Positions 2,639 to 34,949 of a stretch of 64,000 nt of DNA are shown here, one piece after another (the first letter of the stretch is position 1; every line of letters begins with the position of its first letter). The DNA comes from a virus: positions 1-64,000 of the IMG/VR virus record IMGVR_UViG_3300030098_006058; one strand, 5' to 3'. The translations under genes were made by a program, and so were the position numbers. The notes under the pieces are model-generated. The model saw only the letters and a program-made list of their open reading frames with translations. It was not told where the DNA came from and did not search any database.

Positions 2639-2947
2639 ATGGCAAAAACAGAATTAAGTCAAATTAATCAATCCATCAGAACTGGTGATCAGACTAGGTT
2701 AGGATGTGGTGCTACGTATATTGCAGCAGGTTCTGTATATAGTGGAGATTGGGTAGCTATACAATCTATCAGTACTACAGATGTAGTATTAAAAGTTAGT
2801 GGTACAGCAGAAACTATAGTAGATTGGGAAGGGGTAGCAGGTGATATCACATTAGAATCTACTGTTGGAACAAGTCCGATATGGTATGGAAACTTCACAC
2901 AGATTGAAGTAGATGCTGGAATACTATTAGCGTATAAACGTTGCTAA
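2639..2947 (+). CDS. Small beta-rich protein, possible virion component
   Basis: 102 residues, Thr/Ser/Val/Ile-rich with alternating hydrophobic pattern, suggesting an all-beta fold. It resembles in style the short beta proteins at 35038-35403 and 35434-35736 (a sandwich-like 'VxxGDWVxIQ' stretch). That group sits among tail and decoration genes in this phage, so a virion decoration or spacer role is possible. No specific family is recognised. Starts at ATG 2639 after an AT-rich gap following the tRNA. Confidence 0.6.
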   Translation: MAKTELSQINQSIRTGDQTRLGCGATYIAAGSVYSGDWVAIQSISTTDVVLKVSGTAETIVDWEGVAGDITLESTVGTSPIWYGNFTQIEVDAGILLAYKRC

Positions 2948-2950
2948 TGC

Positions 2951-3148
2951 ATGGATAGAATAATAAAAAAATTAGCTGAGGAATATAATTTACCAGAACA
3001 GGTAATTGAAAGTATTGTTAGATCTCAGTTTAAATTTGTATGTGATAAAATGCAAGATGATGAATGTTTAAAAATAAGATTACATCATTTTGGAGTATTT
3101 AAAATTAAACCTAAAAGATTATATGTAATAAATGGAGAGATTGAGTGA
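2951..3148 (+). CDS. HU/IHF-like DNA-binding protein (short)
   Basis: 65 residues. The pattern of two helices followed by a segment reading LRLHHFGVFKIKPKR-like (LKIRLHHFGVFKIKPKR) matches the HU/IHF family core, where I-x-G-F-G-x-F-x-x-x-x-R leads into the DNA-binding arm. The protein is shorter than the usual 90 residues and lacks most of the beta-arm, a truncated form common in crAss-like phages, which are known to encode IHF-type subunits. It would bend or compact DNA, perhaps in replication or packaging. It lies three bases after the previous gene. Confidence 0.6.
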   Translation: MDRIIKKLAEEYNLPEQVIESIVRSQFKFVCDKMQDDECLKIRLHHFGVFKIKPKRLYVINGEIE

Positions 3149-11279: not shown

Positions 11280-13775
11280 ATGCAGGGATTAAATCAAAAT
11301 AACATATTAGAGGAGCTACCAAAACAGAAAATAGCTAAATCTAAAAAGGGAAAAAAATGGGGAAAAGCTTGTATAGATGAATTAGAAAAAGTTACATATA
11401 GTGACATGTCTTATAATGGACGATCCTCTAGATATAGAAAACAAATTAATTATGATTTGTATAACGGTGTTTTAGATCAGAATGATTTTGAATATGTAGT
11501 CAATCCTTATGGATTTAGTAAAGATGAATTCCCAGCTAACTTACAACATTATGATATAATATCTCCCAAATTACAACTTCTAATGGGGGAAGAAATTAAA
11601 AGACCTTTTAACTTTAGAGTTGTTTCTCATGATCCTGAATCTGTTTCTAAGATGGAAGAGGTGAAGAAAGAAATGATGATGGAATTTCTATATAGTGTAT
11701 TAGTACCACCACAAGTACAACAACAGCAACAACAAGAAATGATGCAGATGCAACAACAGGGAGCATCTGAAGAGGAGATGCAAATGGCACAGCCAAAAAC
11801 ACCTGCTCAAATAGAAAAATACATAGCATACGAATATCAAGATGTTAGAGAAAAACAAGGTCAAAATATTTTAGAATATCTAGTTAAAAATCAAAATATA
11901 GAAAATAAGTTCAATGCAGGATTTAAGGATGCTTTAATCGCAGGAGAAGAAATTTATTGGGTAGGCGAAGTTGCAGGTGAACCTGTAGTAAGAGTATGTA
12001 ATCCTTTAGACGTACGTGTTATATTAGATCCAGACTCACCTTGGATAGAAGATGCTCAATCTGTAGTAGAAGAAAGATGGTTAACATTAGCAACTGTTAT
12101 TGATGAATATCATGAATATTTAACTCCTCAAGAAATAGATAAATTAGAAAAAGGATGGGGAGGTAGAGATAGTTATATGGATAGTAACGGTGTTAATTAT
12201 CCATATTCAGAATTTAATATTGTTAATTATGATGCAAGAGGAACTTTTGATCCAGAGCATATTCGAAGTTATAGACGAGATGGTATGATTCGTGTTATAC
12301 AATGCGAATGGAAATCTATGCGTAAAGTAGGATTTATAACTTATAAAGATGAGATAGGATTTGAACAACAAGATATTGTAGATGAAATTTTTGAAGTACC
12401 AGAAGAAGCAGAAAAAAATAAAGATGGAGAATGGGTATTTGGAGGAATGCGTTTAAAATGGCATTGGATAAGTGAATATTGGGAAGGTACAAAAATAGCT
12501 GAAGATATTTATTTAAATATTAAGCCTAAAGAAAACCAAAGAAGAGATATGGATAATCCTAGTAATGTCAAATCTGGATATGTAGGATATATTTATAATG
12601 AAAGAAATTCAGAATCTATTTCCTTGATAGATCGTATGAAACCATATCAGTATTTGTATAATATTATTTATTATCGAACTGAATTAGCTTTAGCAAAATC
12701 AAAAGGTAAAGTGGCTTTAATGGATATTTCACAAATACCTTCATCAGAAGGATGGGACGTTTCTAAGTGGATGTACTATCTAGAAGCTGTAGGTGTGATG
12801 TTTATTAACTCCAGAGAGGAGGGGAATAGATCCCAGCAAGCCCCGCAATTTAATCAATTCCAATCTATTGATCTTTCTATGGGTAATTATATTAATACTC
12901 ATGTCCAACTATTAGATCAAATCAAAAATGAGATTGGAGAACTCTCTGGAGTTTCTAGACAAAGACAAGGACAGGTTCAAACTTCTGAACTTGTAGGAAA
13001 TACTGAACGAGCTGTTGTTCAGTCTTCTCATATTACAGAATATTGGTTTTATAATCATAGTGAAGTTAAAAGAAAAGTATTACAAGCATTAATCGATGTA
13101 GCAAAAATGGCTTGGAAGAGTGGTAAGAAAATTCAATATATTATGGATGACATGAGTCGAGTATTTCTTAATCTAGAAACTGATGATTTTTCTAGTACTA
13201 ATTATGGAGTATTTGTTTCTAATTCTGGTAAAGATGATAGAGCAGTAGATTCAATGAGACAATTAGCTCAACAAGCTCTTCAAGCAGGAGTAACTAATTT
13301 CTCAGATGTAGCAAGTATTATGCAGTCAGAATCATTAGGTGATATGAAACGAAAACTAGTAGATGCAGAAAATAAAATGCAACAAAAACAAGCTGAAGAT
13401 GGTCAAAGACAACAACAGATGCAGCAACAAGCAGCTCAATTAGCGCAGCAAACAGAACAAATGAAGCAAGATAGAGAAGATGCACGTGCTCAATTAGAAG
13501 CAGATACTAAGATTAGAGTGGCAGAGATTAATGCTGAAGCTAGGTTAGCTGATCAAGATGATAATAATGATGGTTATATTGATATACAAAATCGAGATAA
13601 TGATGTTAAATTAGAATCAGATAAAGAAAAAATAAATTTACAACGAGAAAAACAACAAGCAGAACTTGGATTGAAACAGCAAGAAATGGAAGAAAAGAAA
13701 AGAGCTAACCAAGCTAATGAGCAAATAAAAAGAACTGCTGCAAATAAGAAACCTAATGCCGGAGGATCCAAATAA
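11280..13775 (+). CDS. Portal protein, crAss-like
   Basis: 831 residues. The portal forms the dodecameric DNA gate at one head vertex. Evidence is position right after terL, length in the crAss-like range, an N-terminal half with wing/stem-like composition, and a C-terminal alpha-helical region (residues about 690-831) that is a long Gln/Glu-rich coiled coil, as expected for the barrel. An internal Gln/Met-rich segment near residues 140-170 is a low-complexity insert. It begins a transcription unit with its own promoter and overlaps the next gene by 20 bases. Confidence 0.85.
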   Translation: MQGLNQNNILEELPKQKIAKSKKGKKWGKACIDELEKVTYSDMSYNGRSSRYRKQINYDLYNGVLDQNDFEYVVNPYGFSKDEFPANLQHYDIISPKLQLLMGEEIKRPFNFRVVSHDPESVSKMEEVKKEMMMEFLYSVLVPPQVQQQQQQEMMQMQQQGASEEEMQMAQPKTPAQIEKYIAYEYQDVREKQGQNILEYLVKNQNIENKFNAGFKDALIAGEEIYWVGEVAGEPVVRVCNPLDVRVILDPDSPWIEDAQSVVEERWLTLATVIDEYHEYLTPQEIDKLEKGWGGRDSYMDSNGVNYPYSEFNIVNYDARGTFDPEHIRSYRRDGMIRVIQCEWKSMRKVGFITYKDEIGFEQQDIVDEIFEVPEEAEKNKDGEWVFGGMRLKWHWISEYWEGTKIAEDIYLNIKPKENQRRDMDNPSNVKSGYVGYIYNERNSESISLIDRMKPYQYLYNIIYYRTELALAKSKGKVALMDISQIPSSEGWDVSKWMYYLEAVGVMFINSREEGNRSQQAPQFNQFQSIDLSMGNYINTHVQLLDQIKNEIGELSGVSRQRQGQVQTSELVGNTERAVVQSSHITEYWFYNHSEVKRKVLQALIDVAKMAWKSGKKIQYIMDDMSRVFLNLETDDFSSTNYGVFVSNSGKDDRAVDSMRQLAQQALQAGVTNFSDVASIMQSESLGDMKRKLVDAENKMQQKQAEDGQRQQQMQQQAAQLAQQTEQMKQDREDARAQLEADTKIRVAEINAEARLADQDDNNDGYIDIQNRDNDVKLESDKEKINLQREKQQAELGLKQQEMEEKKRANQANEQIKRTAANKKPNAGGSK

Positions 13776-16218
13776 AAAGATAAATCTAAATTTACCTCAA
13801 TTTAAATCTAAGAAAAATAGTAGATTATTTTTTATGGGTGAGCGTGGGAATAGACATGGAGGAATACATGAGGAAACTTTTATGGGTGCAAGATGGACAA
13901 CAGATCTTCCTATATCTGATCGTGTATCTTTTTCTCCAACTGTAACAGCAGGAAAGGTTAATGTGGACATACCTCCTATTCGTCATGCTCATGTTCCTGG
14001 TGAAATTAATAAATTTAGATTTCCTATTTTAGGTGGGGGTATAAAAATAAAATTAGGTAAAAAATATGGAGGTGATAATATAAGTTCTAATAAAGCTGCT
14101 AAAATTTTAGATCATGGTTATATTAGAAATAAACCTCTAACATTTAAACAAAGGGCTTTCTTTGGTTCTAAGCTTAATCGTGCATATGGAGGATTAATTA
14201 AAAAATATGAAAATGGTGGAGACATAAATACTCAAATTCCTTTAAATATTCAACCACAAGATAAACTAATAAAACCTAAAGATATTAAAATGAGAGGTAG
14301 TAGTAAATATACTATTGATTCAGATTATTATTATAGGAATAGAAAAAATGCAAAAATTATTAAACCTGTTCAAAATTTTTTAATACAACAAGGTTTTTTA
14401 TCAGAAGGTGATAATGATGGATTTTGGGGAACTCAAACAGAAGGAGCTTTACAGGATTATATTACAGATCAACATATATCTAATTTTGAATGGGGAGAAA
14501 ATTTTACTCCTTCTTCTGACTTTCTTAGAAAGAAAGTATTTACTGAAAGTGGGGGATATTCTGATGTAAAATCTTCAGCGGGGGCTTTAGGATTAATGCA
14601 ATTTATGCCAAAGAATGTTAAAGAATTTCAAAAAGATGGAAGATATTTTGATGAAGTTAGAACAGGATGGTCTGCTTCAAATAATGCGGATGCTATTTTA
14701 GGCTCTCAATTATATATAAGAGATTTAGCAGAAAATTATGGAATCATAACTCCAAATATGAATCAAAAAACAAAAGAAGCATTTTTAAATATAGCTTATA
14801 ATTGGAGTCCTGATGGTGCTATGTATTTAAGAGATCATCTTAAAACATTAACATATCCATCTGGAGAGAAAAAAGGACAGAAAGTTGATATTAATGATGT
14901 TAATTATTGGTTACCATATATAGAAAAAAATAGAGGTTTTGAAGGGGGATGGAGATATTTAAAAGATAAAGCAGGTGAACCTATATATAAAAAACATTGG
15001 TGGACAGCTGAAGAAATAAAAGCAGAAAAAAATCCGGAAAAGAAGAAAAAGATGAGAGGAGGATGGAAATGGACTAAACAATATGAGTTGGATGATAAAG
15101 GAGAAAAAATTCCTGCTTCATGGTATGTACCCACAGAGACTACAAATTATGCTAGAATATCTCATGGTATGGCAGATCCAAGTAATGAGAAAGTTACAAA
15201 AAAATTATCTGATTTAAAAGATTGGAATTATGAATTAAGCGACTTAATAAGAAATCCTATATATAAGAAAGAATGGGGAGGATATAGTCAAAGCCATCTT
15301 TCAAGACTTTTAGAACAAGGAGGTGATCCAGGTAAAACTGAACCGCCAGAAAATTCATATCCTGAATTAACTGGTAAAAATTTAGAAAGTTTTAATGAGA
15401 TAACAAAATGGGAACCTGATGAGGTGAAAGATATATTATATAAAACTTGGCTAAATACAGGAAAACCTAAGTTATCGACTGAAGGGTTGTTTGGGATGTT
15501 CCCGGGTAGTTATAATGTATACACGAATAAGATTAGAGCTGCTGATACTGAAACTCTTGTAGAAGAATTAAAACATGCATATCAATTTAGAGGAGATAAA
15601 AGAACAGGTGATCAAGACAATTCACTTAAAAGTAAAATAAAATCTAAGCTATTTCATCACGGTCGAGGACCTTTTCAACTTGTAGGCACATTACTGGGAG
15701 CACCTTATCAACTAAGTAGAGTTCTGGGTTTAAACAAGAACTTCAGAAAAAATCTTTATAATCCTTATAAAAAAACGGAAGGAGTAGAAGGGATTCATGA
15801 TCAATTCGGTGCTTATGGTCATGCGTGGGGACACGGATTAGAAAGTAATGTAAATAGAGCAAGAAATAAAGCTATATATCGTGAAATTAAAGAAGCTCAA
15901 GAAAACGAAGATTGGGAGAAAGAACTTAACTTAAAAACCAGACTTTATTCACTATCAAATCCCATAGATTCTGCTTCGTTTCGCTTAAATAGTACCCCTA
16001 ACCTTCAGGAACGGACTGATAATTCTCATCTTAACCCCAGAAAAAATTGGTTAGAGGTGGATAATTTTACTACATGGGATCCTGAAAATAAAGAACCGTT
16101 GGGAATAGCAAAAGAGATGTTTGAAGATTCATATGAAAATAAATTATATAATTTTTTATATAATAGAAATACAATAGATGATCTTAATCTATATCAAGAT
16201 TCAAAATATTGGGAATAA
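13756..16218 (+). CDS. Virion protein with PG-binding and lytic transglycosylase domains
   Basis: 820 residues. Residues about 198-237 form a peptidoglycan-binding repeat (VQNFLIQQGFL, DGFWGTQTEGALQDYI). Residues about 256-380 are a lysozyme-like transglycosylase: FTESGG with catalytic Glu264, then GALGLMQFMP at 276-285 and AFLNIAYNW further on. It would cut glycan strands at DNA entry. Around residues 596-612 the segment TLVEELKHAYQFRG looks like a zinc-peptidase helix but with Glu in place of the first His. An N-terminal region has outer-membrane-like strands, and YGGLIKKYENGGD is a glycine motif shared with the cargo proteins. Position between portal and scaffold suggests it is packed in the head. 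Confidence 0.75.
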   Translation: MPEDPNKKINLNLPQFKSKKNSRLFFMGERGNRHGGIHEETFMGARWTTDLPISDRVSFSPTVTAGKVNVDIPPIRHAHVPGEINKFRFPILGGGIKIKLGKKYGGDNISSNKAAKILDHGYIRNKPLTFKQRAFFGSKLNRAYGGLIKKYENGGDINTQIPLNIQPQDKLIKPKDIKMRGSSKYTIDSDYYYRNRKNAKIIKPVQNFLIQQGFLSEGDNDGFWGTQTEGALQDYITDQHISNFEWGENFTPSSDFLRKKVFTESGGYSDVKSSAGALGLMQFMPKNVKEFQKDGRYFDEVRTGWSASNNADAILGSQLYIRDLAENYGIITPNMNQKTKEAFLNIAYNWSPDGAMYLRDHLKTLTYPSGEKKGQKVDINDVNYWLPYIEKNRGFEGGWRYLKDKAGEPIYKKHWWTAEEIKAEKNPEKKKKMRGGWKWTKQYELDDKGEKIPASWYVPTETTNYARISHGMADPSNEKVTKKLSDLKDWNYELSDLIRNPIYKKEWGGYSQSHLSRLLEQGGDPGKTEPPENSYPELTGKNLESFNEITKWEPDEVKDILYKTWLNTGKPKLSTEGLFGMFPGSYNVYTNKIRAADTETLVEELKHAYQFRGDKRTGDQDNSLKSKIKSKLFHHGRGPFQLVGTLLGAPYQLSRVLGLNKNFRKNLYNPYKKTEGVEGIHDQFGAYGHAWGHGLESNVNRARNKAIYREIKEAQENEDWEKELNLKTRLYSLSNPIDSASFRLNSTPNLQERTDNSHLNPRKNWLEVDNFTTWDPENKEPLGIAKEMFEDSYENKLYNFLYNRNTIDDLNLYQDSKYWE

Positions 16219-17549: not shown

Positions 17550-18998
17550 ATGGCTATAAATGGATTGCAACTATATAGAACTAAGTGGCATTCTGGTTTA
17601 ACTCAACAAAATCACTTATCATCTGCGTATTTAACAGAACCAGAAGTTATGAGTACATTAGTGACTCGTATCTTTGGGATGCAGGGTTCAAACCCTATCC
17701 AATACTTGACATCAGGTATGGGACGTTCTAAGGAAATTGGTAATAGAGAATATGATTGGCATTTACAGGGTGATGATGAAAAAGCTGTTGCAGTTACCGG
17801 TAACTTAGGAGACGGAGGCGTACAGCCTGGTCTAAATAGAACAACTTTTCGTGTTAAATTTAAGGAAAAGTGGTTCGCAAATCAAGAAGTTCTTGTCGCA
17901 GATGACAGATCTTACAGAGTAAGAGTAATGGAAGATCCCTATTTTGATGGAGGGGATTGGATATATACGTTAAAATTAACAAGTCCAGATCCGGCAAAAT
18001 TTATGGATCCTGATTTAATTTCAGCGGGAAGACAATTTTCTAAAGAATATACTACAGTACCTGAGTTCTCTACTGGAGGTAACACTACTTTTAGTGCTCC
18101 TTTCAAAATGAGAAATCATTTAAGTACATTGAGAAAATCATATACAGTAACAAGAAGTGCTGCAACTGATGCACTTGTTATCCAACTTGCTGATCCAGCA
18201 AATCCGGGTAAAAAGTCAACTGTATGGACTCGATATGCTGAGTGGGAAGCAATGGCACAGTGGTATAGAGAGATCGAAAGATCTTATTGGTATTCAACAT
18301 TTTCATCTGATGCTAATGGTGTCACTGATATGTTGGGTAATAATGGACTTCCAGTTTATGAAGGTGCTGGTATTAGAGAGCAAATTGCTCCATCTAATAT
18401 TAGAAATTATACTGAATTAACTGAGAATATTATCCGTGATTTCTTAATTGATCTATCATATAATGTAGCTCCTGAATCATCTAGAGATTTTGTTGCATTT
18501 ACTGGTGAATATGGATTTGCTGAGTTTGACAAAGCTATGAAAACAGCTGCGTCTAATTGGACTCTAGTAGATTCTAAATTTGTAACTGGTAGTGGACAAA
18601 ACCTTGCATTAGGTGGACAGTTTAAAACATATATGGGATTAAATGGTACTAAGATTACTCTTAAACATTTACCTTTATATGATAATACTGTTATAAACAG
18701 ACAGTTACATGCTGATACAGGTAGACCAATAGAATCGTACAGATTTACTTTCTTAGACTTTGGTATGGCAGGTGGAGAATCAAACATCCAATCTGTTCAT
18801 AAAAAAGATTCTAAGGACATGATGTGGCATACAGCGGGTTCTGTTGATCCATTTGGTAACACAGCTAAATCAGTAAACACTATGCGATCTGATAATCTTG
18901 ATGGTTATTCAGTACATATGTTAACTGAATGTGGTATCATGATCAAAAACCCAATGGCATGTGGTGAGTTAATTTGTACTAATGTAGCGGCTAACTAA
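17550..18998 (+). CDS. Major capsid protein, crAss-like
   Basis: 482 residues, close to the usual ~490 for crAss-like capsid proteins. The N-terminal MAINGLQLYRTKWHSGLTQQ leads into a long arm, followed by alpha/beta segments of the HK97 fold (long helix around EWEAMAQWYREIERSYWY, near residues 230-247) and a C-terminal beta-rich end. Codons are more biased towards common ones than in neighbouring genes, as expected for the most abundant protein. It follows the scaffold candidate after 31 bases. Confidence 0.88.
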   Translation: MAINGLQLYRTKWHSGLTQQNHLSSAYLTEPEVMSTLVTRIFGMQGSNPIQYLTSGMGRSKEIGNREYDWHLQGDDEKAVAVTGNLGDGGVQPGLNRTTFRVKFKEKWFANQEVLVADDRSYRVRVMEDPYFDGGDWIYTLKLTSPDPAKFMDPDLISAGRQFSKEYTTVPEFSTGGNTTFSAPFKMRNHLSTLRKSYTVTRSAATDALVIQLADPANPGKKSTVWTRYAEWEAMAQWYREIERSYWYSTFSSDANGVTDMLGNNGLPVYEGAGIREQIAPSNIRNYTELTENIIRDFLIDLSYNVAPESSRDFVAFTGEYGFAEFDKAMKTAASNWTLVDSKFVTGSGQNLALGGQFKTYMGLNGTKITLKHLPLYDNTVINRQLHADTGRPIESYRFTFLDFGMAGGESNIQSVHKKDSKDMMWHTAGSVDPFGNTAKSVNTMRSDNLDGYSVHMLTECGIMIKNPMACGELICTNVAAN

Positions 18999-22670: not shown

Positions 22671-23555
22671 ATGGCGTGTCAAAATTGTGAAAATGGATGT
22701 ATAAATCCAAATTTATGTTCATGTGATTGTCAATCATGTGCGACTGCAGGTGCTTGTGATATTCCTGCAGGTGCTCCTGGTGCGCAAGGTCCACAAGGTC
22801 CGCAAGGTACTCCAGGACAACCCGGTTTAAACGGTGTAGATGGTATAGATGGTCTAAATGGATGTACAATAACTAATGTTTATCAATCAGATGGAAATGA
22901 ACCTCCAGGTATCCCAGCTGGACATCTTATAGTAGAAACTGGAAATACAGGAGAACCCTGTGAGCAGGTATTTGATGCAGGTCCAATTTCAGGAGGAGGA
23001 GCAGGTGATGGCGCAATGCCACCCGGTGTTATTGTTATGTGGTCTGGCGCTTTAAATGCTATACCTGATGGTTGGTTAATATGCGATGGCACTAATGGTA
23101 CTCCCGATTTACAAGGTAGATTTGTAGTAGGTCGAGATCCAACAGTAGGTTCTCCATATACATCGGTAGGAAATATTGGGGGAGCTGCTACTGTTTCTTT
23201 AATGCAAGGTAATATACCAGCACATACTCATAGTTTAGCAAATGTAAATGTAGTAATGGATCAAGGTGGAGGTCATTATCATTCATGGAGAGGTTATCAT
23301 GAAGATAATGGAAATGGTAGTGGAGAACAACATAGATCTAGAAATTGGTATAATACAGATCCTTTAGAACCTATTACTATTCAACCTATAGCACCTACTG
23401 ATTTTCTTGATCCTGATTATGGTGCTCATACACATACAGCTTCATTAAATCCAACTGTTACTATGGATGGAACTCCTCAATTAACATTAGGAGCAGGAAA
23501 TCCTTTTAGTATAACCCCCACCTATTACACTATAGCATATATCATGAAACAATAA
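22671..23555 (+). CDS. Collagen-like tail fibre protein with tail-collar domain
   Basis: 294 residues. The N-terminal 30 carry a Cys cluster (CQNCENGCINPNLCSCDCQS). Residues 34-64 are a run of ten Gly-X-Y triplets (GAPGAQGPQGPQGTPGQP and on), a collagen-like trimer rod. Residues about 119-160 match the phage tail-collar domain (PPGVIVMWSG, IPDGWLICDG, DLQGRFVVG). The rest is His/Gly-rich, with HTHS-like motifs typical of metal-stabilised fibre tips. Most likely a trimeric receptor-binding fibre. Stop overlaps the next start (TAATG). Confidence 0.85.
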   Translation: MACQNCENGCINPNLCSCDCQSCATAGACDIPAGAPGAQGPQGPQGTPGQPGLNGVDGIDGLNGCTITNVYQSDGNEPPGIPAGHLIVETGNTGEPCEQVFDAGPISGGGAGDGAMPPGVIVMWSGALNAIPDGWLICDGTNGTPDLQGRFVVGRDPTVGSPYTSVGNIGGAATVSLMQGNIPAHTHSLANVNVVMDQGGGHYHSWRGYHEDNGNGSGEQHRSRNWYNTDPLEPITIQPIAPTDFLDPDYGAHTHTASLNPTVTMDGTPQLTLGAGNPFSITPTYYTIAYIMKQ

Positions 23556-24262
23556 TGGCAGATAAAAAACTGAATATATACGATTTAAGACATAGGTTAA
23601 ACAAACTAAAATGTTGTTTTTCTGAAAAAGCAGCTGATTATGCTATGAAGCAAAAGTTTGGTAAAGTTTGTAAAGAGGAAAAATGTAATTTACAACTTTT
23701 AGGTGCTTATATAGAAATGATTGAATGTATGCATCCAGTCGGTTGTAATTGTTATACTGAATGGGTACAAGGAGGTTCTTTAATTTGGAATGAAAATACA
23801 TCTTATATTAAAGATCAAATTGTAAAAGTTTATCCAAGAGCATCTGCAGTAGGAAGTCCTAGTGAATTTTTACTTATGAGGTGGACAAATGCTTTACCTA
23901 GTTTTTCTTTTGTTGCTGATGCAGCGGGAGAAGGAGGATCTATATGTTGGGAAGATGGTAATTTAGTTCAAACTGGATATATTTCACCTTGTTATGATTT
24001 GATAAATATACATGGTTGGAGTGTGTGTGGAAATGTTAAAGTAGCATGGCAAGCTCAAGGAAGTTATGTATGGAATCCTAATATGACATATCAATATGGA
24101 GATATTGTTAAATTCCAAGGAGGTGGTAATGGGCTTAATCAAACTGGCCAAAATCAGTTTTATATAAGTAGAATAAAAAATAATTTTGCTAATGCAGCCA
24201 ATCTAGGATTCCATGAATCTACAGATTGGGTATTATTAGAATGTTTTGACTTAATAGTATAA
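23555..24262 (+). CDS. Fibre-associated protein with two carbohydrate-binding-like modules
   Basis: 235 residues. Cys-rich start (LKCCFSEKAA, CKEEKCN, CMHPVGCNC). Two internal repeats each begin with a Trp-Asn pair and carry a YxxxxxVK stretch: WNENTSYIKDQIVKVY (about residue 77) and WNPNMTYQYGDIVKF (about residue 175). Both resemble the WNxxxxYxxGDxVxYxG signature of chitin/cellulose-binding CBM5/12 modules. They would help bind surface sugars. Placed between the collagen-like fibre and the giant adhesin. Confidence 0.6.
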   Translation: MADKKLNIYDLRHRLNKLKCCFSEKAADYAMKQKFGKVCKEEKCNLQLLGAYIEMIECMHPVGCNCYTEWVQGGSLIWNENTSYIKDQIVKVYPRASAVGSPSEFLLMRWTNALPSFSFVADAAGEGGSICWEDGNLVQTGYISPCYDLINIHGWSVCGNVKVAWQAQGSYVWNPNMTYQYGDIVKFQGGGNGLNQTGQNQFYISRIKNNFANAANLGFHESTDWVLLECFDLIV

Positions 24263-24266
24263 TTAA

Positions 24267-27200
24267 ATGGCAGCGAAAGATAAATTTAAACAACTCGTAT
24301 ACGGTAAGAATATAAGACAGGATAATAGAACTTATCCTCCTACTATATCAACTGTTAATACAGCATTTGATCCTCAAGCTGGATGTGCATCAATTTCTGC
24401 AGATGCGGCTTATAATCCAGGAACTGCTTATGCAGCGGGTGATGTTTTATTTTATACTGATGGTGCTACAGTTTATAATTCTGCTAATGCAGTTATGGGT
24501 GGAGGTACTGTTGGAGGATTAGGCGGAGATGGAAAAAATGCTCAAAGTACTTTTATTGTTAAAAGTCCTACTACTCATTATTGGTGGATTTTCTCTCATG
24601 ATGTAGCTAATAATAAAGTATGGGTTGCTACAGTTAAAATGGATGATAATGGGGGATTAGGATCTGTATCTCAAAAAGCAACTTCTCAAACATTCGCAGG
24701 TTCTGCAACTGATAGGATGGCTCCATATTATGATGGAACTGCAAGTCAGTATGGTTTTATTATACATTTAACAGGTAGTGATCGTTGGGTATCTTATAGA
24801 GTAAATGGATTATCCGGTCAGAATCCTACATTTGCTGCTGCAGTAACTACTTCTATAGGTACATCTTATAATAATAATGATGCAGCTAATCATGCAACTG
24901 TTAAATTCAATAAAGATAATACAAAATTTGCAACAGTTTATCAAGCAAATATAGGTACTGCAGGTTCACCTGTTACTGGAGCTGTTGTTGAGGTATTTGA
25001 TTTTAATACAAGTACACAAGTACCATCTAATTTTGGTCAATTTATTCTTCCTATTAATGATGCTGGTGCGATAGCTATCGGAGGAGGTGCTCAAAGACTT
25101 AAAGGATATGATTTAGAATGGGATTTTGATACTGCAAGTCCAACTTTATATGCACCTGTTTATGATCCCATAAATGGAATGGGTATTAGATATTATGTAT
25201 TAAATGCTTCTAATGTTCCTTCTAGTAGTGGAGATGTAGCTAAGTCTTTCCAAAGTACTGGAACATGGGGAGATAGAACTATTTGGTCTTTATTTAGAGA
25301 TCCATATGACGATAAAATTTATGTAGCAACTCCAAATAAAATTGGTAGTACAGGAGGATATAGTGCAAATTATAATGATACTTATGGTATAACACAGGTT
25401 TCTGCTATAACAAATTCAAGTAGTCCTGCTGGTACTGCAGAGTTTGTAGATTCAGTAGTAACTACAGGTACTAAATTAGTTAGAAAAGGTTTAGGTACAA
25501 GAGCAATAAGAGATGAAGCATCTGCATCATCTGGTAAATATAATTTAACTCCATGTGATACATTTAAAGAATATGTATTAGATTCAGATGGATTTATTTG
25601 GAGTATAGACGGAGCACTTGATGCTACGAAAATTGCTGATGTAAGTAGTATTACAAATAGAAAAAATATAGCGGTTCAAAAGGAAACTGGATTTATATAT
25701 TTATTAGCGGGTACAGGAGCTACTCAAGCTATCTATAAAGTAGACCCTATTTCAGGATCTGTAGCTTCAGGAGTAGCAATTTCTGGAGCAGGTATTACAG
25801 GTTTTAATAGTATTTGTAGTAAAGATGGAGATGCTCTTAAATTATATGCAGTTATAGAAATAGCTGGTCCGCATTATAATTATGCAGAAATAGTAATTGC
25901 TACAGGAGTAGCTACTAAAACTGCAGGTAATACATCTCATGTTGCAGTAGATACTGCATATATAGGTACTACATTATATATGGCATCTGGAGATGATCTA
26001 TATAAAAATACAGGACCTGGTACATGGGCTACAGTAGGAGCTAATGGTCTAAGTACAAACTATGAAGGTTTAGCTACAGATGATACAACTTTATATGGTT
26101 ATATAGCTGGAAAGAGATATACTATTAATACAACTAGTGGAGCAGCAACATTAGGAAAAAGTATAACAACAAATGGTGGAACAGCTACTTGGAATTATAC
26201 AATTACAGGTGCTGGCCAAATTAATTATGCAGGAACTCTTAATCCTCTTATTACTTCTGATGGTACTATTCCTCCATTTGTAGGAGATATAATTAGAGTT
26301 GAAAACTTTGCAGGATGTTGGACTGTTAGTACAGCTTCTTCAGGAACTGCTCAAGTAGTTGGGAATGTTTTACAAAGTTATTCAGATTGTGATTCTTGTA
26401 CTTTAGTTGATAGTAATTTAGAGTGTAAATTACTTGTTGATTGTTGTACAACAGGGGCCGGAATACCTCAAAAAGTAGTTGGAACTACAGATGATTCTAC
26501 AATAGTAGTTGGTAATGTATATGAAATTACAGGTAATGCTACAACTTCAGATCAATTAAATAGATGTGTTAAAGCTGTTTCTCCTGATTCTGATTTATAT
26601 GTTACTTTTTATAATGGAGAAGTAGGTAGTATAGATTTAACTACCGGTATTATTACACAGAATACAGGTCTTCCAAATACTATGGGTATTACTTTTGATA
26701 GTAATGGAAATGGTTTAACATTACAAGAAGATGGAAAAATTAGTTTAGTTAAACCTTCTGGTTTTGCTAATGCTATAGAAGTTAATGCTAGTGCAGTTTC
26801 CATGAATAAAGCTATTACTGTAGCGGATGATGGTACTATATATGCAGCAGGAGATGTTTCTGGTGTAACAAAATTACAAAGTATAACTTATGATAATAAT
26901 GCTGATACCATAACTTTTGGTTCTACATTAGTTAATGCTAGTGTTCTTCTTACAGGAGATATGGCTGTAGGTCCTGATACATTATTATATTGTACAGGAG
27001 ATGCGGCTCCTTCTGGTGCATTAGATCCAAATGATCTATTTACTTTAGATACAACTTCAGCTACTAATACTACTATTGCAAGTTTAACTACTACATTAAG
27101 TTTAACAACTCATCAAATAGTTAAAGGTATATCTTTTGTTAAAGATGTATGTAAAGTATTAGTTTGGGATTCTGCGTCTAATGGTTTAACATTATTTGAT

Positions 27201-30200
27201 GTTAATCATCTTAGTGGAGTTTTAATAAGTAGTTTATCTTTACAACATCCAGATGGTAGTTCTGCTTTTGAAATTCCTCCTACAAGTATAGCTTATAATA
27301 ATCCTTGTAAATACCATACTGAAAGTTCATTTAAAGTAACTTCTTATGGAAATTGTTCTGATTGTGCTGCATCTGATACATCAAAAAAATGTAAATATAA
27401 ATTAATTAACTGTAAAAACGGTTTAGTTAAATATACTGAAGTAGATTTATCAGCAGATGTTGGTAAAATAATCTCTTTAAATGAAGTAGGATTATATAAA
27501 TGTTATACTGTAGAACATACATATTCTGATTCTGTTACAGCTGATGTAACTAAATTAGCAGGTTATACAGATTGTACTGATTGTGAAAATAGTGAAAATT
27601 CTATTTTTAGATTATTGAAATGTACTGATGAAACTTCAGATCCAAAATATACAACTGAAGATTTAACTCCAGGTATATCTGGATATGTTGGTAAAGTAGC
27701 TATTCTAGAAGGAGAATATTATGGAAGAATAGTAGATAGTTTAGGAACTTCTGCTCATTCATTATTAACTACTGCAGTAACTATTGTTAATCATACTTCA
27801 AAATGTAGTGATGCTAATTTCTATACTCGAATAACTGCATGCAATGATTCAACAAGAATTATTGATATTGACTATACCTTAAGTCCAAGTATTCATTCTT
27901 ATATAGGTACTTCTAAAGGTTTAGCTATAAATAATCTAGGAAATAAAGAAGATGAAGTTTGTTGGACAGCAGCTTCTTGGATTGAAGGTCCAACTCCTTA
28001 TGTATATCAAAATATTACTGTAACTGCTTTTGCTGATGATTGTGATACTTGTGTTCAAACTGCATTAGCACCACCACCATCACAGATTGCTTTATCATCT
28101 TGTTGTAATACACCATCTGGTGATTATGCTCCTGATTTTTATTTTGCAGTTACTGCTGGAGTTGATATAAATTTAGATGATGATGGATTAATTGTTGAAG
28201 CAGATATTACAGATCCAACTACTGGTATACTTTATAATGGATGTTGGAATGTAGACGAATTACCTGGATTGATGGATCCTTCTTTTTTAACTGATTGGGA
28301 TTATATTAATGTATTAGCTTCTACTGTTGTAGGGGGAAGTCCAGGAACTAGTTGTCATGGATGTACATATTGGTGTACAGCTACAGCAGGATGTGAAGTA
28401 TTAGCTTGTGTTTCATCTGCACAGGATTATTTTGTAGAGTGTGGAGGATTTAGTCAGGCCGAACAAGGTGCTGGTGTATTAGCATTTGATGAAGATCCTC
28501 TTAGAGAATGTTTTAGATTATGTAATAATAAATTTAATGGTGTACACGGAATAAACTGGTATTGGGGTAATGGAGCAGGATTGAAGTGGGAATTATTAGG
28601 TACTCCTTATGCTACATTTGATGGAAATAGTCAAATGGGTATGGGGATTATAGGAATGCCAGGTGATTATGGATATACTAGATTTGGAAGTGCTGTACAC
28701 TGTGTAGCTGAAAATATCACTATAGGAACTAAAGATTATGTTAAGGGAGATATTTTATTTTATACCGACGGTCATCATGTGTTTAATTCTAATCATGTAT
28801 TCATGGACAATGGTACAAATTTGGCTGGAGGAGATATGGTGAGTCCAATTTCAGATATTAATTCTGCTTATGATAATTATAGAATGGCTACACAACAGGC
28901 TATTATTGTACCAGACCCTCAAGGAGGATTTATAGGTAATAGTACAAAGACTCATGCTTGGTATTATATATTTTACCAATCAACAGGAGATGGACCTTTT
29001 TATTCGGCAAAAGTATTAATGGATACTTTTAATGGATTAGGACTTGTAGCTCCTGATACTATTGACTATAAAATACATGATAATTCTACAGAAAGATTAT
29101 GTGTAAGTACTGGAAGAACTGATGATGCAGAAGAGGTTTATTGGGTAATAGAAGTACAACCATGGTATGATATTCCAAATCCAGATTTTGGAACACCATT
29201 AGCAGAACCTAATGCAACTATACGTGTTCATAAAGTTAGTGCTATTGGATTTGAAGTAGATTATACAATATTTGAATTAGATCAAAATAATATTCAGGGG
29301 AAATTAGATAATTTCCAACAAATGTCTGTATGTGCAAGAATAAAAATGTCACCAGATAATAAATGGATTGTTCTAACAGGTTGGCAAGGAGGAGCGAATT
29401 GGACTCAATTATTAAGATTTGATGAAACTACTGGAGAGATAGGTCCTACTTATGGAGAAATCTGGACAGATGCTCCAAATTTAGGGTGTGTTCCTGTTAC
29501 TACAGGTTGTAATACTAATATTGCGACTAGTTTTATTCCAACAATGACTGCTGTTGAATTTGATGCAGGAAGTAATTATTTATATATGATAAGGAGCGGA
29601 TCAATCTATCCGCCAGAAGTTCCATCGGGAAGTTGTGAAGGTCAAAATACAATGCAACCTGCTTTATTAAGAAGATCTCTTGATGGTGTAACTGGAGAAA
29701 TAGGAGAAATAGAAATAGTAGAAAATAATATACAGTTTTTACCAGGAATCAATAATATTCCTGCTATGGATACTGAAGGACAAGGAGAGGGTTGTGCAAA
29801 TCATGCAGCTATTCCAGTAGATATGGTTATAGGACCTGATTGGAATTTATATTATGGTATGTTTAAAGGTAAATTAACTGGAAGTCAGAATACAGGTTTA
29901 AGTTCTTGGAAACAAGGAAGTTTTATAGGACAGGATTTTAATGATGGCGAATTTAGTACATATGATAAATATATAGGTAGAGTTGTTAATCCTCATAATG
30001 ACTATCCAATAGTTCTAAGTCCTAATGAAGATCAGTGGGATCAAACTTATGTAAGTTTGGAAAATCGAAGAATGGCAACAGGATTCCCAGTATACTTAAA
30101 GAAAAAATGTGCTCTACCTAGTGAAGATGATACTGTGTATGATGTGGGTGTAGCAGCTACATATGAAGCATGTGATGAAAGTACTGATTGTGGAATAGTT

Positions 30201-33200
30201 ATACCTCCTATACCTGCATATCAATTAACTGAGTGTGGATGTTCAGGAGCAGATGGTATTGGTTGTGGGGGAGCTATTACAGATCCGTGCTATACTTGTG
30301 ATAAGGATTATGATGGCATTCAACAAACTACTGGATTAGAAGCGCCTACTTCTAATATTGTAGCTAATCCTACTGTTGGAAATGCTAAATGGAGTACTTT
30401 AGAAACTGGTACTAATTCTAGACATTGGACAGTCATTAGAGAAGCAGTAGAATTATTAGCTACTGGAGTTGATCAAACTGTAACACTGAGTTATAGTTAT
30501 TGTAAAGGTGGAACTAGTTTTCATGGAGGACAGGTTTTACAAACTTTTGAACAAGGTCCTGCAACATCTAGAACAACTGGAATAAGCAATTATACTGGTG
30601 TTGCATTTGATTATGTATATGCAATAACTGAAATACAATTTAAAGCAGAAATTGCCTATTGCTTTCAAATAATGAAGGAATTATTTGAATCAGTATTTAA
30701 CAAATCTTGTGGATATGGTGCTAATTTATGTTTAAATTTTGTACCTGCAAATGCACCAGGTTTAGCTCCTGGATCTGCTGCTTTAGGAAATGAAGTTTGG
30801 GATGGGGTTACTGGAACTGGAATTGTGAATGAAGATGAACTATTAAATAATCCAGTAGGAAGCCCTCAAGGAACTCCATTCGATGATTCTGCAGGAACTT
30901 CAGGAATATCAAATATCGGTGATATTAGAATAGGTATGTCAGCTAATTCACCTTCGCCCGCAGGTGCACTAGGTCGTGGAGGATCTCCTTCTCCTAATTC
31001 TGTACCTGGGTTATCAAGAGATACTGGTTGTTATTTCGGTAACTGTAATACACAAAATCCAGCACGTATGTATTCATTGATATGGTTAGAGGGTAATACT
31101 GAGTGGAGAATGAGAACTCAGCCTTATGATGAAACTATAGGAAATCTTATAAATAATTCTGGTGAGTCTAAAAATTATGAAATAGTAAGAATTATGGCCC
31201 ATGAAATATTTCATGCTTTAGGAATGGGACATTGTTGGAGAACTTTTAGGACTCAAGGAGTTGTAGATGGATTTAATTGTGCCAATGTAATAAATAGTCC
31301 TTGTACATCTCCTGGTATACAAGGTAATGGTGCATGTGCAGGTTGGTGGGCATATTATTGCGGGGTATTAGAAACTAATTCTATAATGGCAGCAACAGTA
31401 GGTTCAGATATGGAATGGAATGATTTCTTTGGAACACCTTCCTGTAATCTAGCAGGAGGAGATAGTGGATTGATAGATCGAACTTCTGTATGTGCTCTTT
31501 ATGGTTATACTTATGGAAATAGTCCATATAGTGAAGCAGGAACAACTTATAATCAAATAACAAATTCTGTTATAGCCCAAGCTCAAGGAGCATCTACTAC
31601 GGGATTAGCAGATGAAGATAATGATGTATGGCAATGTCCTGCATGTGAAGGTGGATTATTTTATACAACTGCTGCAGAGTTTGAACCATTTGTTGGTGGA
31701 ACAATTTTATGGAATCCTGGTGATGGATTAGGAGAAAGATGTTTTGAAGTAAGCGCTATAGATGGTATACCTGAAGGTGAAACAGATACAACTATAACAG
31801 GATATGAGGGTCCTTATGAGGACTGTGATGAATGTCTGTTAACTCAGTTGTCTCCACCTTGTTGGCAATTATCTTTATGTATGCAATGTGAAGCAAATGT
31901 AGATGGTTCGACTCCAATGAATATAATTACAACAACTGATATGAGTTCATATTGTGTCATTGGAGGAATACCAGGTGATGATGTGAATACTCCTGTAGTT
32001 GTATTAGAAGAATATCCAAATGCATGTTGGACAGTTGAATGTGCACTTTCGATAGACTTAGATGAGGCTCTATGTCAAACTGCTGCTCCAGTAACTGTAG
32101 AATCTTCACATGCAGATTGTCAAATTTGCTGCGATGGTGTAGGGGGACAATGTTTTAGTCTTCATAGTTGTACCACTGGAGAAACATTTATAACTTTTAC
32201 TAATTTATTTATATATATAGGTCAGGTAGTTACTTTAACTCAATATGTTCCTGGAATGACACCGGGAGATTGTTTTACAGTAAGTTTATGCGGTCCTTGT
32301 GGTCCTGATTGTTTAGGTCTTGGAGCAGTTACAGTTAATGAAACATGGAATGATTGTAAATCATGTGTGACAGAGGGACAGCAAATATATGATTTATTTG
32401 ATTGTGCAACATGTTTTGAAGAGGATTATTGGTCTTATCCAAATCCAATTCCAGCAGGATGTAATTATGTATTAGGTGTTGCTGAAACTGTAGCTATTAG
32501 TATTTTAAATGGTATGGGTGGATCTGCTTATTTTACTGGAGATCCTGCAGTAGAAGATTCTGAAGGAAACCCATTCTGCATGAAAGTATTTCCAAGTGAG
32601 ATGAATTGGTCTCCTTATGCGGTTGATGTTACTCAATCTTGTATATGTAATCCTGATGAACCTACTCCAGTTATAGGCTGTATGGATTCAACAGCATTAA
32701 ATTATAATCCAAATGCGAATACTCCATGTGATGGAACAAATGGAAATCCTGTTATTATACCATGTCAAGAAGATCAAACTATACAAACTAATCCATTAGG
32801 ATGTTGTTGTATATATATAGATGATACAGAATATGAAGGATGTTGTGATCAAACAGCTGTAAATTATTGTCCAGGATGTAGTAATTGTTGTCCTGATAAT
32901 AGCTGTTGTCAATATAATCCACCTCCCCCTTTAATTTCAGTACAATATGAAGAAGATTGTATAAACTGTTTAAGTTGGGATGAAATAGATGATGTATTCC
33001 AGAAAGCTGCTAAGATGTGTGATGTATGTTGGCCTCCACCAGGAATAACATATAAAGAATATTATTGTAATGAACCATTACCTGTGGTTCCTGATCCATT
33101 AGATCCTCCAATAATTGGATGTCTGGATCCTGTTGCATGGAATTATAATCCTGATGCAGAATTACCTTGTGACGGTTGTTGCGAATATGTAGATGGTTGT

Positions 33201-34949
33201 ACAGATCAATCTGCATGTAATTATGATCCTGAAGCAACAGAGACTAATTTAGATGCTTGTATATATCCAAATGAATGTGGAAGTTGTATAGGTGATTTAA
33301 GCTGTTTAGAACCTGGATGTATGGACCCAACAGCTTGTAACTATGATCCAAATGCACAAGAAGATTGTGTAACTTGCTGTGAATATTCTACATGTGTAGG
33401 ATGTTGTGATGAAAACGATCCTAATTATTGTCCAACGTGTACAGTTTGTAATTCTAATTATTGTGTAGCTGGAATATTTGATTGTTTATCTAATAGAGAT
33501 ATTTATGTATTTTATGATATGACTTCTATGGGATATGTTGGAGCCGGAACTACACAAGATGATAGACTATTATTTGTAAATGGTATAAAGGATACTATGG
33601 ATGAAGTATATATGTGGTTAGTAAATGGAGGATATCTAGGAAATGTTTATCATTTACCAGTTCAACATGTGTCATGTGCTGTAAATGGGACTGGGATTTG
33701 TGGTGGTACGGCTCAAGATTATAGTACTTGGATACCAACTGCAACTGCATCAGCAAACTTTGAAAGATATTTAAGATGGTTTACATATCCAGCTCATGGA
33801 AATAAAGGAGCTAATAGTGGAGATTTACCAGATTCAGATAGAGTATCTTTTGTTACTTTATCTAAATGTAATCCAGGTGCACCAAATGCGGGACAACCAA
33901 CAGATTATTGTTTTAATAATATAACATATAATACAGGTGTAGGAGGAACAACTGCTCCAATAATAAAACAGATTTCTGCTAAATATACTTGGGATGGAAT
34001 AAGTGATTTTGAAAGCGGTCTTCCTCAACCTCAATTAGATCCAAATGGACATGGGGCTGCGGATGGTCCAGGTTGTGAAGGGCTGTATGATCCATATCAT
34101 GAATTTGCTCCAGAAAAACCAGTTGATAATAGCCCAATTTGTATAGCATTTATAGATGAAAGTGGTCAACAAGGTGCAGCTGGAACTCCAGTTAGTAATA
34201 CTGATGATACTATTAATATAGGCCAATATACATCACAAGAACTTATTTCTAGTGCACTAGCTGGTCAAGGAGATGGATGTCTGGTTACTGATTTAAATTA
34301 TACTTTAGGGGCCGGAGCTGCTAATACTTTTCCATATACTGGAGATCATGGAATAGGTTTAGGGTGTCATTCAGATACTGCTTCCGATGCATCAGGATAT
34401 TTAAATCCTGCTAATAATGTAACTCAAGAATACAAATGGGATTTCATGGATTTTGATAAATTCTGGTCATTAGGATATGATGATACTACATTTACTTTTA
34501 ATACAGTAGGTAATGAAAATGGATACGCTCAAAATAATGCTAACTTCTTAATTATACCAGCAGCTGCACAATGGCAAGGTATGACAGATAGTAACCAACT
34601 TATTTTAATACATCATTTAAATCAAGCTATTGGTAGAGGAGTTCCAACTCTATCAGGTCATATTGAAGTAGCAAACTTTGTAGAGTGGCCAGTATATGTA
34701 GGTACAAGTAATAATACTAGACATAGTGCTAGATACATGACAGACCCTCTTATGGTTAATAAATATGCAGGTGGACAGCAGGGATTTGCAATACAATCTG
34801 AACCAAATAATATGTTAGGTAATTATAAATTTAATTATTCATTACCTAATGAAGTTACATCTCTTGGACAGGTAGGATCAGATGCAATGTTATTCCTTCT
34901 ATTAGAAGGGCTATGTGCAAACTATATGGAGATGGGTGCAGTACAATAA
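24267..34949 (+). CDS. Giant Cys-rich modular adhesin with metzincin protease
   Basis: 3560 residues, no signal peptide, so particle-borne. Order: propeller-like domain (about 35-410, ILFYTDG-type signature as VLFYTDGATVYN), a second propeller-like part (432-672), Cys modules ending in DCxxC (673-1390), a second Bacteroidota-type propeller (1431-1945, WYWGNGAGLKW and ILFYTDGHHVFN), a zinc metalloprotease (about 2018-2430) with HEIFHALGMGH at 2312-2322 and a Met-turn (SIMAA, Met2374), more Cys modules (2455-2798), six GCxDxxAxNYxP-type repeats (2804-3058) and a vWA-like end (from 3069; DMTSM at 3084-3088). It probably binds and cuts host surface proteins during adsorption. Host-derived module shuffling is likely. 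Overall function is inferred. Confidence 0.8.
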   Translation: MAAKDKFKQLVYGKNIRQDNRTYPPTISTVNTAFDPQAGCASISADAAYNPGTAYAAGDVLFYTDGATVYNSANAVMGGGTVGGLGGDGKNAQSTFIVKSPTTHYWWIFSHDVANNKVWVATVKMDDNGGLGSVSQKATSQTFAGSATDRMAPYYDGTASQYGFIIHLTGSDRWVSYRVNGLSGQNPTFAAAVTTSIGTSYNNNDAANHATVKFNKDNTKFATVYQANIGTAGSPVTGAVVEVFDFNTSTQVPSNFGQFILPINDAGAIAIGGGAQRLKGYDLEWDFDTASPTLYAPVYDPINGMGIRYYVLNASNVPSSSGDVAKSFQSTGTWGDRTIWSLFRDPYDDKIYVATPNKIGSTGGYSANYNDTYGITQVSAITNSSSPAGTAEFVDSVVTTGTKLVRKGLGTRAIRDEASASSGKYNLTPCDTFKEYVLDSDGFIWSIDGALDATKIADVSSITNRKNIAVQKETGFIYLLAGTGATQAIYKVDPISGSVASGVAISGAGITGFNSICSKDGDALKLYAVIEIAGPHYNYAEIVIATGVATKTAGNTSHVAVDTAYIGTTLYMASGDDLYKNTGPGTWATVGANGLSTNYEGLATDDTTLYGYIAGKRYTINTTSGAATLGKSITTNGGTATWNYTITGAGQINYAGTLNPLITSDGTIPPFVGDIIRVENFAGCWTVSTASSGTAQVVGNVLQSYSDCDSCTLVDSNLECKLLVDCCTTGAGIPQKVVGTTDDSTIVVGNVYEITGNATTSDQLNRCVKAVSPDSDLYVTFYNGEVGSIDLTTGIITQNTGLPNTMGITFDSNGNGLTLQEDGKISLVKPSGFANAIEVNASAVSMNKAITVADDGTIYAAGDVSGVTKLQSITYDNNADTITFGSTLVNASVLLTGDMAVGPDTLLYCTGDAAPSGALDPNDLFTLDTTSATNTTIASLTTTLSLTTHQIVKGISFVKDVCKVLVWDSASNGLTLFDVNHLSGVLISSLSLQHPDGSSAFEIPPTSIAYNNPCKYHTESSFKVTSYGNCSDCAASDTSKKCKYKLINCKNGLVKYTEVDLSADVGKIISLNEVGLYKCYTVEHTYSDSVTADVTKLAGYTDCTDCENSENSIFRLLKCTDETSDPKYTTEDLTPGISGYVGKVAILEGEYYGRIVDSLGTSAHSLLTTAVTIVNHTSKCSDANFYTRITACNDSTRIIDIDYTLSPSIHSYIGTSKGLAINNLGNKEDEVCWTAASWIEGPTPYVYQNITVTAFADDCDTCVQTALAPPPSQIALSSCCNTPSGDYAPDFYFAVTAGVDINLDDDGLIVEADITDPTTGILYNGCWNVDELPGLMDPSFLTDWDYINVLASTVVGGSPGTSCHGCTYWCTATAGCEVLACVSSAQDYFVECGGFSQAEQGAGVLAFDEDPLRECFRLCNNKFNGVHGINWYWGNGAGLKWELLGTPYATFDGNSQMGMGIIGMPGDYGYTRFGSAVHCVAENITIGTKDYVKGDILFYTDGHHVFNSNHVFMDNGTNLAGGDMVSPISDINSAYDNYRMATQQAIIVPDPQGGFIGNSTKTHAWYYIFYQSTGDGPFYSAKVLMDTFNGLGLVAPDTIDYKIHDNSTERLCVSTGRTDDAEEVYWVIEVQPWYDIPNPDFGTPLAEPNATIRVHKVSAIGFEVDYTIFELDQNNIQGKLDNFQQMSVCARIKMSPDNKWIVLTGWQGGANWTQLLRFDETTGEIGPTYGEIWTDAPNLGCVPVTTGCNTNIATSFIPTMTAVEFDAGSNYLYMIRSGSIYPPEVPSGSCEGQNTMQPALLRRSLDGVTGEIGEIEIVENNIQFLPGINNIPAMDTEGQGEGCANHAAIPVDMVIGPDWNLYYGMFKGKLTGSQNTGLSSWKQGSFIGQDFNDGEFSTYDKYIGRVVNPHNDYPIVLSPNEDQWDQTYVSLENRRMATGFPVYLKKKCALPSEDDTVYDVGVAATYEACDESTDCGIVIPPIPAYQLTECGCSGADGIGCGGAITDPCYTCDKDYDGIQQTTGLEAPTSNIVANPTVGNAKWSTLETGTNSRHWTVIREAVELLATGVDQTVTLSYSYCKGGTSFHGGQVLQTFEQGPATSRTTGISNYTGVAFDYVYAITEIQFKAEIAYCFQIMKELFESVFNKSCGYGANLCLNFVPANAPGLAPGSAALGNEVWDGVTGTGIVNEDELLNNPVGSPQGTPFDDSAGTSGISNIGDIRIGMSANSPSPAGALGRGGSPSPNSVPGLSRDTGCYFGNCNTQNPARMYSLIWLEGNTEWRMRTQPYDETIGNLINNSGESKNYEIVRIMAHEIFHALGMGHCWRTFRTQGVVDGFNCANVINSPCTSPGIQGNGACAGWWAYYCGVLETNSIMAATVGSDMEWNDFFGTPSCNLAGGDSGLIDRTSVCALYGYTYGNSPYSEAGTTYNQITNSVIAQAQGASTTGLADEDNDVWQCPACEGGLFYTTAAEFEPFVGGTILWNPGDGLGERCFEVSAIDGIPEGETDTTITGYEGPYEDCDECLLTQLSPPCWQLSLCMQCEANVDGSTPMNIITTTDMSSYCVIGGIPGDDVNTPVVVLEEYPNACWTVECALSIDLDEALCQTAAPVTVESSHADCQICCDGVGGQCFSLHSCTTGETFITFTNLFIYIGQVVTLTQYVPGMTPGDCFTVSLCGPCGPDCLGLGAVTVNETWNDCKSCVTEGQQIYDLFDCATCFEEDYWSYPNPIPAGCNYVLGVAETVAISILNGMGGSAYFTGDPAVEDSEGNPFCMKVFPSEMNWSPYAVDVTQSCICNPDEPTPVIGCMDSTALNYNPNANTPCDGTNGNPVIIPCQEDQTIQTNPLGCCCIYIDDTEYEGCCDQTAVNYCPGCSNCCPDNSCCQYNPPPPLISVQYEEDCINCLSWDEIDDVFQKAAKMCDVCWPPPGITYKEYYCNEPLPVVPDPLDPPIIGCLDPVAWNYNPDAELPCDGCCEYVDGCTDQSACNYDPEATETNLDACIYPNECGSCIGDLSCLEPGCMDPTACNYDPNAQEDCVTCCEYSTCVGCCDENDPNYCPTCTVCNSNYCVAGIFDCLSNRDIYVFYDMTSMGYVGAGTTQDDRLLFVNGIKDTMDEVYMWLVNGGYLGNVYHLPVQHVSCAVNGTGICGGTAQDYSTWIPTATASANFERYLRWFTYPAHGNKGANSGDLPDSDRVSFVTLSKCNPGAPNAGQPTDYCFNNITYNTGVGGTTAPIIKQISAKYTWDGISDFESGLPQPQLDPNGHGAADGPGCEGLYDPYHEFAPEKPVDNSPICIAFIDESGQQGAAGTPVSNTDDTINIGQYTSQELISSALAGQGDGCLVTDLNYTLGAGAANTFPYTGDHGIGLGCHSDTASDASGYLNPANNVTQEYKWDFMDFDKFWSLGYDDTTFTFNTVGNENGYAQNNANFLIIPAAAQWQGMTDSNQLILIHHLNQAIGRGVPTLSGHIEVANFVEWPVYVGTSNNTRHSARYMTDPLMVNKYAGGQQGFAIQSEPNNMLGNYKFNYSLPNEVTSLGQVGSDAMLFLLLEGLCANYMEMGAVQ
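32676..33440 (+). repeat. GCxDxxAxNYxP repeat block in giant adhesin
   Basis: Six in-frame units of about 25-90 residues beginning near 32676, 32838, 33117, 33198, 33312 and 33399. They encode GCMDSTALNYNP, GCCDQTAVNYCP, GCLDPVAWNYNP, GCTDQSACNYDP, GCMDPTACNYDP and GCCDENDPNYCP. The same signature is common in secreted proteins of marine Bacteroidota, where it is thought to bind calcium or act as a spacer. Confidence 0.8.

Follow-up and report, generated by a model that had tools for sequence, protein, structure and literature searches.

A predicted matrixin-type zinc protease at the centre of a giant probable adhesin from the tail module of a crAss-like phage

Known tail-borne enzymes of phages are mostly directed at polysaccharide or peptidoglycan, and the locus described here raises the question of whether a phage adhesin may also carry an enzyme that cuts proteins of the host surface. 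The window that we analysed is a stretch of 64,000 nucleotides (positions 1 to 64,000 of the IMG/VR virus record IMGVR_UViG_3300030098_006058), and the gene in question is an open reading frame (ORF) of 3560 amino acids. We consider it reasonably probable that the product of this ORF is a tail-borne adhesin and that the zinc protease of the matrixin type at its centre is functional and cuts host surface proteins at attachment. The label "adhesin" is drawn from gene position and domain content rather than from observation. The position and length of the ORF, and the places of the zinc-site sequence HEIFHALGMGH and of the Met-turn SIM (Met2374) within it, are all as given in the initial annotation of this DNA (Table 1).

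The pattern HExxHxxGxx[HD] occurs only once in the window across all six frames, and its chance expectation in a protein of the ORF's composition is 2.6e-5. A search of viral contigs with the major head protein gave 48 loci; a homologue of the protease domain is present in 13 of the 23 records behind these loci, within ORFs of 3228-4147 aa, and the head proteins of those 13 records are at least 88% identical to that of the window. The complete HExxHxxGxxH zinc site claimed in the initial annotation is intact in all 13 orthologous ORFs and is also kept in three further loci with partial ORFs, although these domains are only about 21-38% identical to that of the window. Because the pairs L099/L100 and L098/L103 look near-identical, the number of independent orthologues is lower than 13. 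Twelve of the proteins can be aligned collinearly over their full length, and in this alignment 4 of the 43 His residues of the window protein are invariant, three of them being the zinc ligands, as are 4 of its 145 Glu residues, the catalytic Glu2313 included; Gly2319 and Met2374 are likewise invariant. The Met-turn is plain in every orthologue except L094, where the alignment of the Met is less certain because its clear SIM sits further downstream. A crude estimate, which ignores relatedness, puts the joint probability of these six residues of the site at 1e-7. For the pairs compared, the ratio of nonsynonymous to synonymous substitution rates within the protease domain is 0.27-0.55, and the domain is under purifying selection. 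The conservation of the active site throughout the relatives found suggests that this group of marine crAss-like phages cuts host surface proteins.

The initial annotation had assigned the domain to the metzincins, and within this group we find it to be most like the matrixins (M10) and less like the pappalysins and M43. The Pfam gathering cutoff for the matrixin family (PF00413, MEROPS M10A) is 24 bits and is exceeded by the orthologues L106 (34), L101 (30.7) and L099 (26.5 bits), and all 12 aligned members match the family at least weakly (E up to 1). In a profile search of the PDB, the bacterial matrixin karilysin is the top match, followed mainly by matrix metalloproteinases (MMPs) and myroilysin, with E values from 0.002 upward. 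The Met-turn, ALM or SIM, is of the matrixin type, whereas five of six bacterial proteins inspected carry NYMDY. These six ORFs come from weak relatives that a profile search detected in 15 of 301 genomes from a single family; the five with NYMDY have HExxHxxGxxH and are M43-like by eye, and the sixth holds a matrixin-like stretch. A genome scan using the protease alignment gave no relatives, and tblastn with either of two versions of the domain matched nothing in the phage collection. The phage domain resembles matrixins and MMPs in zinc site, Met-turn and predicted fold, but differs from them in sitting within an adhesin, in its extended N-terminal part and in its large insertions; to our knowledge, the cysteine-switch pro-peptide is absent from known bacterial matrixins such as karilysin. 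We regard the assignment to the matrixin-type (M10) metzincins as well supported. Two candidates were rejected along the way. Copper oxidases, matched in a single-sequence PDB search (E 0.02-0.4), were displaced by metzincins in the profile search and are set aside, since what they match is a His-rich stretch that does not contain the HExxH pattern; the FtsH of jumbo phage MIJ3 is a protease unrelated to that of the adhesin.

The initial annotation had proposed a structure prediction as a check on the fold, and the outcome differs between the two domains modelled. For the compact orthologous domain of L095, which is 34% identical to the window domain, AlphaFold gave a predicted local distance difference test (pLDDT) of 73 and a predicted template modelling score of 0.83, and comparison of this model with the PDB by Foldseek places MMP-13 first, with probability 1.00 and a target TM of up to 0.71; five matches have E <0.001. 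The top entry in a viral structure library is 74% identical, and insect-virus MMPs follow. The modelled orthologous domain therefore has the predicted metzincin fold; the model of the window's own domain, whose best structure matches are metzincins without significance, is too poor to count.

The terminase, portal and major head protein of the window are all crAss-like, in agreement with the phage type proposed in the initial annotation, and the head protein is about 41-44% identical to those of the Crassvirales records that match it best. The order of collar-like gene, 235-aa gene and adhesin is kept in relatives with visible flanks. In a sister clade (75% head-protein identity), a different ORF of 1023 aa follows the collar-like gene, and PF00413 was undetected in the records of this clade, some of which are only fragments. 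In the cultured Cellulophaga phage phi14:2, both blocks that flank the interval are homologous to those of the window, and the interval between them holds the pectate lyase g086, annotated as a virion part by tandem mass spectrometry. By position, the adhesin occupies the tail-module interval of a relative's virion enzyme, a feature that it shares with enzymatic tail spikes such as the phi14:2 lyase, and carries a predicted protease instead of a polysaccharide lyase. That the adhesin is a tail-module gene is well supported.

The remaining domains of the protein point to the Bacteroidota surface. The domain at residues 25-460 has relatives in 221 genome stretches, and the best 80 of the 221 are all from Bacteroidota. 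Twelve ORFs among these relatives were inspected, and in all four that were scanned with Pfam the CHU_C signal of the type IX secretion system (T9SS) is present; identity between the phage domain and the host proteins is roughly 23-39% across the matched stretch. The adhesin shares this N-terminal domain with T9SS-exported Bacteroidota proteins, but differs from them in having two copies of it and in having no CHU_C domain that we could find, and no signal peptide could be recognised by eye at its N-terminus, which does not resemble those of the host proteins. As to the modules named in the initial annotation, two copies of one domain are present (hhalign probability 99.5% between them), and the propeller-like fold found no confirmation; its description of the protein as Cys-rich holds, with 145 Cys in the window protein, 58 of them invariant. 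In Flavobacterium columnare, mutations in the T9SS genes gld/spr render the bacterium resistant to its phage (PMC9233685), which shows T9SS functions to be of importance to a phage infecting Bacteroidota.

These observations can be joined in a mechanism, in which catalysis, virion location and substrate are what we infer. The adhesin-protease would sit on the phage particle, and its host-like and Cys-rich domains would bring it onto the cell surface of marine Bacteroidota. There the matrixin may cut surface-layer proteins, among which the receptor itself and adhesins exported by the T9SS are the most plausible substrates, and the cleavage would open a path or make attachment irreversible. The adhesin matrixin would then correspond, as a protein-cutting enzyme, to the polysaccharide lyase in the phi14:2 tail module. 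Other phages cut sugar capsules, and by analogy a protein-cutting enzyme suggests a parallel to this.

Several points weigh against a tail-borne protease that cuts host proteins at attachment. The window's own domain scores 16 bits against PF00413, below the cutoff, and its AlphaFold model is poor (pLDDT 47). No relation in sequence was detected between the adhesin and the phi14:2 lyase, and their equivalence is positional only. The presence of the adhesin-protease on particles and its activity are predictions from sequence and models, marine Bacteroidota are the presumed hosts, and the protease could equally act during maturation or at lysis. We think it unlikely that the matrixin is a maturation protease, one that acts on the giant adhesin in which it sits, or on an adjacent tail protein, either in the course of assembly or later. 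Self-processing is known for phage tail and spike proteins, and the matrixin is embedded in, and conserved along with, a very long multi-domain protein; however, no conserved cleavage site was noticed, in the course of work that included no systematic search for one, and related matrixins of other phages belong to proteins of different architecture, one of them 474 aa long. Release at lysis, with the protein acting off the particle on the envelope or surroundings, has a precedent in a Listeria phage-remnant locus that encodes the secreted metzincin Mtz (PMC8235301). This seems improbable for a gene that lies in the tail module beside a collar-fibre gene, in the interval of the phi14:2 virion enzyme, and whose product, judged by eye, begins unlike a secreted host protein.

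The target of the enzyme, and whether it is an enzyme at all, admit further readings. Marine Bacteroidota often live attached and matrix proteins are the classic substrates of matrixins, so the protease might be directed at the extracellular matrix of the particles or algae where the hosts live rather than at the host surface; we give this little credence, as the host-like domains point toward the bacterial surface. Proteolytic activity is itself a prediction, and the domain might be a zinc-stabilised binding module with no proteolytic role. This we hold to be very improbable, because such a module should not need the invariant catalytic Glu, which is kept together with the three ligands and the Met.

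Matrixins also occur elsewhere among phages, and an additional scan brought up six loci (L235-L240) in which they score above the Pfam cutoff. One of them, L236, has the matrixin and PHROG tail-fibre matches within a single ORF, with Asn at the third zinc position (HEIGHALGLGN), and this combination speaks for the tail-borne reading. In L235 the next long ORF is tail-fibre-like, and in L237 the matrixin gene adjoins an ORF that matches tail-spike and virion-structural proteins; by eye, L239 shows the same neighbour order as L237, without a PHROG match. A tail role is unsupported for L238 (an ORF of 2533 aa) because its two scanned neighbours gave no PHROG match, and L240, which is a short ORF of its own on a G+C-rich contig, was not considered further. 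Outside the zinc site, too, the matrixins of L235-L239 and the crAss-like ones have sequence features in common. The crAss head protein was undetected in L235-L240, L248 and L252 in one search in which no control gave a signal. A broader reading, which we judge possible but short of probable, is that matrixins are recurrent tail-borne protein depolymerases: several phage lineages would have fused or placed a related domain in attachment proteins to cut host protein coats, the crAss-like version also borrowing T9SS surface-protein domains from the host. In L237 (474 aa) and L239 (817 aa), a stretch that is VWA-like by eye is combined with the matrixin.

Among known systems, the Listeria Mtz is likewise a metzincin of phage origin, but it is secreted and lies outside any tail protein. 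The MMPs of granuloviruses and nudiviruses also have a viral matrixin fold, but they are separate enzymes of insect viruses. A limited search of the open-access literature gave no earlier report of a protein-cutting phage adhesin, and neither the crassvirus structure paper nor a Crassvirales review mentions a protease or peptidase, as judged by searching their text. If the proposed cutting of host surface proteins is true, some phages treat surface proteins as a barrier or a trigger, and the role of T9SS surface proteins in the infection of Bacteroidota by phages becomes directly testable.

Table 1. Positions of the adhesin gene, its parts and neighbouring genes in the window
Feature	Coordinates	Strand	Remarks
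Giant adhesin-protease ORF, 3560 aa	24267..34949	+	orthologues collinear with it in 11 further records
N-terminal domain, res. 25-460, of a type seen N-terminally in T9SS-exported Bacteroidota proteins	24339..25646	+	
Cys-rich modules, res. about 684-1376	26316..28394	+	many Cys invariant
Second copy of N-terminal domain, res. 1455-1945	28629..30101	+	hhalign 99.5, E 1e-22 against first copy
Matrixin-type metzincin domain with N-terminal extension, res. 2039-2428	30381..31550	+	
GDIRIG strand, res. 2218-2223	30918..30935	+	like matrixin 'ADIxI' strand by eye; largely conserved among phage matrixins
Zinc site HEIFHALGMGH, res. 2312-2322	31200..31232	+	
Met-turn SIM (Met2374)	31380..31388	+	
Four GCxDxxAxNYxPxA repeats, res. 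2804-3030	32676..33356	+	
Conserved C-terminal domain with DMTS motif	33489..34946	+	VWA-like by eye, unconfirmed
crAss-like major head protein	17550..18998	+	PHROG 11589, E 3e-128
Collar/collagen-like tail fibre gene, upstream of adhesin	22671..23555	+	PHROG tail collar fiber, E 6e-19
235-aa gene directly upstream of adhesin	23555..24262	+	conserved beside adhesin

The conserved C-terminal domain of the adhesin gave no PDB or cellular match, one of the searches having lacked a positive control. The T9SS-type Bacteroidota domain is doubled inside this phage protein, and a domain of the same type is found in three further phage contigs of 84-198 kb (L248, L252 and L253), in a different gene neighbourhood. 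The 121-aa gene that follows the adhesin is duplicated in tandem in L098 and L101. Between the portal and head genes, an 820-aa protein (window 13756-16218) contains a transglycosylase/endolysin-like stretch. An ORF of 5711 aa at the end of the window (53177-64000, reaching 70312 in the full record) possibly encodes a virion RNA polymerase polyprotein, as judged by its position relative to phi14:2.
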